A stretch of 35,489 nucleotides of DNA, from the NCBI GenBank assembly GCA_013205405.1, contig JABMMZ010000083.1, positions 1 through 35,489 on the forward strand. Direction: 5' to 3'. The stretch is from Bacteroidota bacterium. Its GTDB lineage: Bacteria; Bacteroidota; Bacteroidia; NS11-12g; UBA955. This document shows, piece by piece, positions 15,029 to 26,645 of the stretch. Under the pieces are notes generated by a model. The model made no database searches. It saw only the letters and a list, made by a program, of their open reading frames with translations, and was not told the origin of the DNA. Within the stretch, counting starts at the first letter, position 1, and the number at the start of each line of letters is the position of its first letter. A program made the position numbers and the translations under genes.

Positions 15029-15067
15029 AAAAAAGGGGTCGATTACTTATGTAGTCGACCCTTTTTT
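15029..15067 (-). terminator. Strong rho-independent terminator
   Basis: AAAAAAG plus GGGTCGA (15036-15042) pairs with TCGACCC (15055-15061) plus TTTTTT across a 12-nt loop. The stem is 7 bp GC-rich and extends into A/T tracts on both sides. It lies 19 nt past the stop of the orphan T9SS tail on the minus strand, so it is probably that lost gene's terminator. It could work in both directions. Confidence 0.82.
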
Positions 15068-15085: not shown

Positions 15086-15205
15086 TTAATCTAGGATAAT
15101 TATTTTTTCAGTGTATTGAACATTTTGCGATTGTCGTTTAATTTGATAAATACCCGCAGCAAATGCTTTAACATTGATTATTTCATTGCCTTTAAAGTTA
15201 GCATA
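15086..15205 (-). pseudogene. Orphan C-terminal tail of a lost T9SS cargo protein
   Basis: Not in the ORF track. On the minus strand the frame ending at 15086 reads NFKGNEIINVKAFAAGIYQI and then a short run ending VQYTEKIIILD before TAA. This is the end of a T9SS type A sorting domain: the AAGIYQIK core followed by a terminal T.KIII stretch. Only about 40 codons are recognisable. Upstream the frame becomes low-complexity (IKKICISDHFF) with no start or body. Its terminator is still in place. It lies directly downstream of another T9SS gene in the same orientation, so a tandem cargo pair probably lost most of the second copy by deletion. Confidence 0.7.
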
Positions 15206-15320
15206 TTTATAATTTATGCAAAAAAAATGATCAGAAATACAAATTTTTTTAATGAGTGATTTAATAATAAAATACTTCTTATTTTAGTAAGACGTGTTTA
15301 GTTATTTTTATAAATCTGTA

Positions 15321-16321
15321 TTATTTTACCAATATAACTTTTTCTGTAATAAAGCTTTCTTTGCCTACTATTTGAATAAAGTAAATACCTTTCTGAAAAG
15401 CACTTAAATCTAATTGTATAGCATTATTGCCTTTTACTAAGTTACTAGCGTTTGAAATAATATGTTGTCCAAATATATTTACTACATTTACTTTTATTTC
15501 TGAATCGTCTTGTAAATTTAATGAAACTTTATAAACACCCGCACTTGGATTGGGCTTAATAGTTACATTAGATATAAATGAGGCTAGCTTAGTAACAAAT
15601 ACAATTCTAGAAATATTAACTTTAGCACTAAAATTTACTTCCTTGATTCTATAGTATATTTCTCCGGGCTCTAAATTACTAATATTATCTACATATTCAT
15701 ATTCGCTCATTTGTGCGGAGTTCTTACTTTTTACAGTTGCTATATCAGTAAACTTATAACCATCTATGCTTCTTTCTAAGATAAATTCCTTGGTCGTTTC
15801 TTCATGGCTAGTTTGCCATTTGATATGACTAAACGTATTATTTGAAAGTTTTGCAGCTACATTATTTAATTCTATTGGCAATGGAACAGAAGATATTGCA
15901 AAACACAAGTCGTTCCAAGTTGCACCTGCATTAACAGGAAGAAAAACTCTCACTACGCCAACTGATGCGTAATTGAATGAAGTTAAATCTATCCAACGGT
16001 CGTATAGCGATGTGCTTGTCGTGGAGTAGTCAAAAGGAGTTACTGCAGTTGTATTATCGAATACCGTTGTTCCTGCACAATAAGCAAAAATAAAATCTTC
16101 ATATTGTGCAGCATATCCAGCTCGGTCAAAGTTTCCGTAAACAGAATCAATTGTATATCCTGAAGGAACGATGTATTCTTTATAGCTCCAACCGCCTGAC
16201 CAAGTGTTATCAATAGTGTCTCGCGTATTAAAGCAAACGGTATCTACCTGTGCTGTGCATTTATCTTTGTAAAACTTAGTACGCTACTTACTAATAATAC
16301 CATCATAATTGTTTTTTTCAT
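15321..16321 (-). pseudogene. T9SS cargo gene broken by a 5-bp tandem duplication
   Basis: The ORF track shows only the C-terminal 210 residues. The true start is ATG at 16319-16321, giving MKKTIMMVLLVSSVLSFTKI then NAQ, a clear signal peptide, which runs to HR-stop. Removing one copy of the tandem CACAG (CTGTG on plus, 16248-16257) restores NAQVDTVCFNTRDTIDNTWSG and an open frame to 15321: 331 residues. The body has a sugar-binding-like beta region, then the usual LPIEL...WQTSHEETTKEFILERS pre-CTD domain, and a sorting domain (TIKPNPSAGVYKV ... GIYFIQIVGKESFITEKVILVK). As sequenced the gene is off; the slipped repeat might be reversible. The GTG at 15953 in the track is internal. Confidence 0.85.
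16248..16257. repeat. Tandem CTGTG duplication causing a frameshift
   Basis: Two adjacent CTGTG copies (CACAG on the coding strand) sit at the signal peptide cleavage site of the T9SS gene. One copy keeps the frame; two copies shift it. Confidence 0.8.
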
Positions 16322-16433
16322 AATTTAATTTTTAAAATAAATTGATTCGCATAATTTCATAGTTTACTTCTATAACTTTACCATAATTCAGCAAATATAA
16401 TTTAATTATTTGATTATTAATTAGACATTGGCA

Positions 16434-24478: not shown

Positions 24479-26004
24479 TTGAATACAAGAAATACCATAC
24501 CGTTTTTAAAGTTCCTTTCTCTGTGGCTGCTATTTCATTTTTTAATTGGTCATTTTAAAACTATTGATAAAGCGCCTATGGGAGTGCATCAAGGGGCACA
24601 ATGCGACAGAGCGAGCTTAGCACAAAATTACTATTATAATGGTTTAAGATTTTTTTATCCAGAGGTAAATGAAACCTTTTGTGGCGATGGTATAGTTTCT
24701 GTAGAAATGCCTTTACCGAGTTATTTCGCAGCCATTTTATACAAATTTTTCGGCTACAACGAACAATGGTTTCGCTTACTTACTTTTACTTTTTTTACTA
24801 TTGGAATGTACGCCCTTTTTCTATGGTTCAAATTGTATTTTAAAACATTGACTGCCTTTGCCTTATTATTAATTATAAATTCATCGCCCATTATTTTATT
24901 TTATAGTATTAGTTTTTTGCCTGATATAGTTTCTTTATCTTTGGTTTTAGTGGCTTGGTACTTATTTTTTAGACAACACATTTCACATCCATTTTTACCT
25001 CTAAAAAATCACAATGTTTATCAATACTTTTTATTATTACTTTAAGTCTTAGTTTAGCCATAAAAACAACTTCTGGTATACAGTGGTTTAGTATGTTAGG
25101 TCTTTTGTTTTTAAGTTATTTTAGATTCCTTAAAATTGAATTACTGCAAAGAAAAAAACTAATTATTTCACTTGCTATTGCTTCGCTAATGCCCATTGGT
25201 TGGCAATTATGGAGTAGGCATTTAGGCGAACATCACCGAAAAGAATACTTTATGATGCAAGTGCCCCTCTCCGAAAATTGGACTCATTTCAAAAATGCGT
25301 TTGACTGTTACTTTGCCAATTGGCCTGAACAAACTTTAGGAAATCCTATTATTTACTTGGCGCTTAGCTTATTAGTAATTATTATTTTCTTAAAAAAATG
25401 GATAAATCCCACCTTGTACTTTTTATCATTAATAAATACCATTGGCAGTGTTTTATTTTTTGGTTTAATGGTGCAACAGTTTAAATATCATGATTATTAT
25501 ATTATTTGTTTAATGCCAATGTTTTTTATCAATTGGATAGCTTTAGCGAGTGCCTTGCCCAAAATAAAATCTAAACACTGGTACTTTAAAGTGGCCATTT
25601 TCGGTTTAGTTATTTATGCGTTTTCATTTCAATATAAATTGGGTAAACGTAACTTTGAAGAGCGTTTTGAAAAAGGAAATTATTGGGAGCAATCTCAGCA
25701 AGATATAGAAGATTATAAACAGTTTAAAATTAAATTAAATGCCGTAGGCATTAATTATACTCATAAAGTGGCTGCTGGTTATGATGGTGCTCCTAATAAT
25801 ATGCTATATTTATTACATTTAAGAGGATTCAGAGTGCAGGCCAATGAACATTCCGATCGTAAAAATAAAATAGTAAAAGATTGTCAACCTCTTATTCTAA
25901 TTATAAATGATAGTAATATGCTTAATGAATACAAGGCCTTTGTTAAAAGTGTTAAACTAAAAGCCGAGTATAAATATTTAAAAGCTTATGAGGTTTTGTA
26001 TTAA
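24479..26004 (+). pseudogene. GT39-like membrane glycosyltransferase split by a frameshift
   Basis: The two ORFs 24479-25045 and 25093-26004 are halves of one multi-pass membrane glycosyltransferase. The first half has TM segments and a DKAPMGVHQGAQCDRASLAQ lumenal motif typical of the PMT/ArnT-like superfamily. It runs off frame after HISHPFLPLKNH. Adding one A in the A6 run (25003-25008) gives PLKKSQCLSILFIITLSLSL joined to AIKTTSGIQWFSMLGL and the second half, a restored frame of about 508 residues with a hydrophobic continuation. The first half begins with TTG 5 nt after the rhodanese stop, since no upstream ATG fits. The C-terminal region (YKHKVAAGYDGAP-like) is soluble. It is either a real break or a homopolymer error. 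Confidence 0.75.
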
Positions 26005-26078
26005 GCTGCTTAATTAAAAATAGCAAACTTAATACTTGAATAAATAGTAGCAAAAACAATGATAAAACCTACTAAATA

Positions 26079-26645
26079 TCAAAAATATGCTTGCTTTGTG
26101 GTATGGGCATTTAGCCAAAGGCGGCTGAAACCACTTAGTCCTGCTATAATTATACTAATAGGCAACCAATATACCAATGCCGAAATATTTTGAACAAACA
26201 CCATATAGCTCACCAGAGCTATAAAACCGCCTGCCGCTATCGTGTGGCTACTGATGCTAAATTTAAGGTTGATATGCAAATTAACTATCAAGCTTAAAAC
26301 ACATCCAATCATAAAATAAATAGGTAAACCACGCATATCATTTTTTAACAATTGATATACTGTTATGCTTAATAAAACAGATATAAAAGCATATGGAATG
26401 GTGCGTTGCTTATGATTAGATATTTGAAAATTATCTACAAATTTAAATTGTTTTAACAGTAAAATAGCTAAGGTTGGGATAACAATAGTGTTGATGGATA
26501 AATAAAGTACAAAAGAAAATAACTGATCTTCATAATACCTGCTATTGTAATATGGATGAAAGTATAAAATTATAAATATTCCAAAGTTTAATAAAATTAA
26601 TGGGTGCAGAATAATTGAGAAAAACCATGCTATTTTATTTATCAT
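26079..26645 (-). CDS. Integral membrane protein, PAP2-superfamily-like
   Basis: This 188-residue protein has about six hydrophobic segments (IAWFFSIILHPLILLNFGIF at the start). A conserved-looking loop, FKFVDNFQISNHKQRTIPY, and KFSISSHTIAAGGFIALVSY resemble the PAP2-related Bacteroidota membrane family, where an S-x-H motif is kept. The classic PAP2 triple signature (KX6RP, PSGH, SRX5HX3D) is incomplete, so phosphatase activity is doubtful. It starts 15 nt after the MetH1 stop on the same strand, so it is probably co-transcribed, with no clear functional link. The 3' end faces the broken GT39-like gene across a 74-bp gap. Confidence 0.75.
   Translation of the reverse strand: MINKIAWFFSIILHPLILLNFGIFIILYFHPYYNSRYYEDQLFSFVLYLSINTIVIPTLAILLLKQFKFVDNFQISNHKQRTIPYAFISVLLSITVYQLLKNDMRGLPIYFMIGCVLSLIVNLHINLKFSISSHTIAAGGFIALVSYMVFVQNISALVYWLPISIIIAGLSGFSRLWLNAHTTKQAYF

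Follow-up and report, generated by a model that had tools for sequence, protein, structure and literature searches.

A probably recently inactivated gene for a type IX secretion cargo protein in a draft Bacteroidota genome, with a 5-bp tandem repeat at the frame break behind its signal peptide

The stretch of DNA that we analyzed (the window; 35,489 nucleotides) is one whole contig, C77, of a draft genome of 2.15 Mb that comprises 123 contigs, is estimated to be 84% complete, and is presumably metagenome assembled; its type IX secretion genes and its relatives point to the Bacteroidota. Two adjoining reading frames lie on its minus strand (Table 1). The signal-peptide frame starts with the ATG at position 16321 and encodes a product of 25 amino acids, MKKTIMMVLLVSSVLSFTKINAQHR*, whose stop codon comes two codons past the NAQ that ends the signal peptide. 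The second frame is open from position 16247 over 308 codons and ends with the TAA at 15321. Both frames are readable, and their junction falls exactly at a tandem pair of CACAG (CACAGCACAG, running from 16257 to 16248), a 10-mer found once in the window. Motifs of the same type as the promoter-like TATATTTG upstream of the start are frequent by chance, with 76 in the window versus 67 expected. The hairpin past the gene possibly acts in both directions, judging from its T-rich and A-rich sides. Large adjacent genes, such as carB, are intact.

Table 1. Features at the broken cargo gene and their positions in the window
Feature	Position	Strand	Evidence
Short ORF of 25 aa: whole signal peptide MKKTIMMVLLVSSVLSFTKINAQ followed by HR and a TAG stop	16244..16321	-	Sequence and translation
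Tandem CACAG pair at the frame break, directly past the signal peptide	16248..16257	-	Sequence
Out-of-frame rest of the gene, 308 open codons and TAA	15321..16247	-	ORF, start-codon, and codon log-odds analysis
N-terminal domain of about 124 aa without a Pfam family; one clear relative in the sampled genomes	15876..16247	-	Profile and relative searches
T9SS type A sorting domain (Por_Secre_tail, PF18962/TIGR04183), exceeding the curated cutoffs	15333..15554	-	Pfam, NCBIfam
Bacteroidota-type promoter-like motif TATATTTG, 71 bp upstream of the start	16392..16399	-	Motif search
Strong terminator-like hairpin past the gene, one side T-rich and the other A-rich	15030..15067		Hairpin search

Were the signal-peptide ORF and the 308-codon frame once a single gene? 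Three points suggest that they were, namely, the coding-level log-odds of the downstream frame, the lack of an early start codon in it, and the in-frame continuity of a relative. For the 308-codon frame, the codon log-odds were 0.46 per codon, compared to 0.30 to 0.59 for 19 intact genes of the window and to −0.11 and −0.39 for the two other frames over the same region. These log-odds were uniform along the frame, with no later decay visible. The first ATG, GTG, or TTG of the frame is the GTG at 15953, so that 98 codons without a start precede it and residue 99 is the earliest possible start. Because no start codon occurs before that position, the frame cannot start alone with its N-terminal domain, and the exported protein cannot be made from the sequence as assembled. 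Among the genomes searched, the N-terminal domain was clearly common to one relative only (L009; 45% identity over residues 16 to 119). In this relative, the signal peptide ends in ..LFAQ and continues in one frame into ..KTQVCFD.., the counterparts of ..INAQ and VDTVCFN here. The relative is itself broken, with a frame break further on and another in its subtilase part, and is a partial witness only. It occupies the first 2.4 kb of a contig of another genome (G058:C28), where the N-terminal domain is fused to a subtilase and at least two frame breaks occur. Two further candidate relatives of the domain (L081 and L082) were weak, with E values of about 1e-4, and were set aside.

Can the ribosome join the two frames, leaving the gene functional as it is? 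A programmed minus-one frameshift would be in keeping with a downstream frame that is open, coding, and undecayed and with a stop codon that sits at the junction. However, such a frameshift is unlikely because the junction, CAG CAC AGG TAG, lacks a slippery heptamer of the X XXY YYZ form. The P-site tRNA would also re-pair poorly on shifting from AGG to CAG, and we found no relative in which such a junction is conserved. We consider this explanation extremely improbable.

The 308-codon frame scored 45.5 bits against PF18962 (cutoff, 27) and 36.9 bits against TIGR04183 (cutoff, 23), and it ends in the C-terminal type A sorting domain of proteins exported by the type IX secretion system (T9SS). 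Its middle contains a weak, subthreshold fibronectin-like stretch. An AlphaFold model of the 308 amino acids had a mean pLDDT of 45, and no PDB match was found for it at an E value of ≤0.001; this low-confidence model was set aside. Like T9SS type A cargo proteins (PF18962/TIGR04183), the locus specifies a signal peptide and a C-terminal sorting domain; unlike in those proteins, the two are in separate frames in the assembly, and the signal-peptide frame stops after 25 amino acids. These data bear out the original prediction of a T9SS cargo gene thrown out of frame directly past its signal peptide, with a 5-bp unit present twice exactly at the break. They also agree with its statements that the two copies bring a stop within a few residues and that a single copy would give an open frame of 331 residues (23 + 308) with a sorting domain. 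Directly downstream of the gene, at positions 15100 to 15230 of the minus strand, we observed a remnant of a second sorting domain (..GNEIINVKAFAAGIYQIKRQ..TEKIIILD*; PF18962 E value of 0.00024 and 21.7 bits, under the cutoff of 27), which suggests an older lost cargo gene next to the present one.

How common are broken genes in this genome? The genome holds 65 T9SS type A sorting domains that exceed the cutoff, one of them being that of the present gene. All 65 cargo frames were read with their upstream sequence, and 61 were assessable, the other 4 reaching a contig end or the end of the fetched stretch. A signal peptide, called by a simple hydrophobicity rule rather than a trained predictor, was found in 56 of the 61 frames. 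The five frames without one were the present gene, a frame at C41:23167, a frame at C63:18779 that is preceded by an in-frame stop, and short remnants on contigs C22 and C36. The C41 locus (G000:C41:23167-23370 plus upstream sequence; L100 and L174) is a frame-broken, serine-hydrolase-like T9SS cargo gene and has no exact 5-bp repeat at its frame break. A 400-kb sample of the genome, taken together with the window, gave 349 strong coding segments, 8 of which opened 20 or more codons ahead of any start codon. The eight include the present gene as well as that on C41. The filter is rough, however, and some of these cases may be natural. Elsewhere in the genome (G000:C94, at about 25580 to 26193), the coding signal is spread over several frames, apparently that of a more degraded gene. 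Broken genes are nothing exceptional in this assembly.

We then asked how unusual the CACAG pair is. The exact CACAG CACAG 10-mer is rare, with 0.01 expected in the window. In contrast, 5-bp tandem pairs of any sequence are common (58 in the window versus 46.9 ± 7.2 in dinucleotide shuffles), and they occur at 1.3 per kb of coding sequence. Given this density, the pair could be a chance neighbor of some other small indel near the signal peptide that broke the frame, and a one-base change in length would leave no visible trace. However, the chance that a pair touches a given 12-bp break point is about 3%, falling to about 0.3% if at least three positions of the unit are G/C, and the frame change fits the length of the repeat unit exactly. 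A coincidence of this kind is improbable in our estimation. On the basis of these frequencies, the CACAG repeat is probably, though not certainly, the inactivating mutation.

Our searches covered 117 relatives together with 108 genomes from the order, 395 from the class, and 396 from the phylum. In none of these sets did we find a close orthologue or a relative with another CACAG copy number. Searches of genome contigs, viral contigs, and plasmids returned matches to the T9SS tail or no match at all. Within the genus, synteny past carB differs between species and offers no empty or intact site for comparison. Because this region varies among the species, the gene looks lineage specific. Lacking a close orthologue, we have no direct view of the ancestral sequence at the break. 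A two-copy pentamer may lie at a break by chance (about 3%), so that another small indel could be the true cause of the frame change.

The main rival to a genuine mutation is an error of assembly or consensus, in which case the gene would be intact in the living population and the extra CACAG would be a product of read assembly or a contribution of a minority strain. The draft state of the genome, the window being a single whole contig, and the undecayed remainder of the gene are all compatible with such an error. The closest relative, which comes from a different assembly, is likewise frame-broken, and assembly errors are known to yield many false pseudogene calls in bacteria (PMC11017572). 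On the other hand, a two-copy pentamer is not hard for short reads; in a study cited by PMC4235727, the accuracy of Illumina sequencing at pentanucleotide repeats is given as similar to that in nonrepetitive sequence. In addition, carB and the other large neighbors are intact. Overall, we regard an error as unlikely.

Can the repeat act as a reversible switch? According to this proposal, slipped-strand changes in the number of CACAG copies would toggle export of a surface protein, as changes in CTCTT do in the opa genes of Neisseria. The geometry is similar, since opa genes carry CTCTT pentamers in the region encoding the leader peptide (PMC5354566). In both cases, a surface-protein gene carries a 5-bp unit in its leader region, and each step changes the frame. 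However, the present locus differs from opa in having two copies, no observed allelic variation, and no multigene family that shares the repeat. The cutoff for calling a pentamer phase variable is five copies or more, and below it, at one to four copies, opa loci were scored as not phase variable (PMC5953494). A two-copy pentamer was present within the first 120 nucleotides in 15 of the 56 intact T9SS cargo genes, without a frame break in any, and none had the same arrangement. Because these genes carry such a pair harmlessly, its presence is uninformative on switching. No second pentamer at a signal-peptide break was found among the 65 cargo frames, and no variant allele was found in the genomes searched, which represent each species by one genome. 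One intact, sulfatase-like T9SS cargo gene (G000:C120:57559-57777) has three tandem copies of CTTTT in its signal-peptide codons; the unit has the size of the opa repeats, yet it is in frame and in few copies.

A second precedent is the pneumococcal capsule, for which Waite et al. reportedly recorded, in 2001 and 2003, phase variation caused by spontaneous tandem duplications in capsule genes. As in those genes, a tandem duplication within an ORF would here turn a gene off. The capsule switching was studied in culture, whereas the present case was studied in an assembled sequence. A minimal switch of this type, by which a Bacteroidota lineage would turn export of a surface protein on and off through a pentamer that arose spontaneously and stands twice in the leader of a T9SS cargo gene, seems to us highly improbable, and slipped-strand switching in general distinctly improbable. 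Nothing specific indicates a dedicated switch, and a search of a collection of papers for type IX secretion, phase variation, and frameshift together found none. The original prediction had left the choice between reversible phase variation and recent pseudogenization. The first is not supported, given two copies rather than five or more, no second cargo gene of the kind, and no relative with an alternative copy number, while the second fits one small event and an undecayed coding signal. The interpretation narrows to two readings, a single accessory gene that was recently inactivated or a slip of the assembly.

We favor, with moderate confidence, the explanation that a lineage-specific gene for a secreted protein lost its function in a single small and recent event. 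This event was most likely a 5-bp tandem duplication that arose spontaneously. The intact gene would have encoded a signal peptide, the uncharacterized N-terminal domain, the weak fibronectin-like middle, and the T9SS sorting tail, and the duplication would have arisen directly past the signal-peptide codons. Ribosomes would still initiate normally and complete the signal peptide but would terminate two codons on, leaving the mature protein with its sorting domain unmade. Loss of one CACAG would restore the frame only at the low rate of ordinary back mutation. The frames, the stop, the lack of another start, the undecayed coding signal, and the repeat are observed directly; we infer the role of the repeat as the mutation, its recent age, and its presence in the living population. 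Inactivation of this kind has a parallel in Salmonella, in which 346 of 378 pseudogenes had a single inactivating mutation; insertions accounted for 17% of the single-mutation pseudogenes, and all but two insertions were shorter than 10 bp (PMC2916853). The cases are alike in one small frame-changing event, an undecayed remainder, and an accessory gene. They differ in that the ancestral frame is here without proof from an orthologue and the genome is a Bacteroidota draft.

These results call for caution, as a short tandem repeat is easily taken for a switch when it lies at a frame break. However, A+T-rich genomes commonly contain pairs of pentamer size, and draft assemblies carry a steady load of broken genes. 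If switching were true at this locus, Opa-like phase variation would extend to proteins exported by the T9SS.
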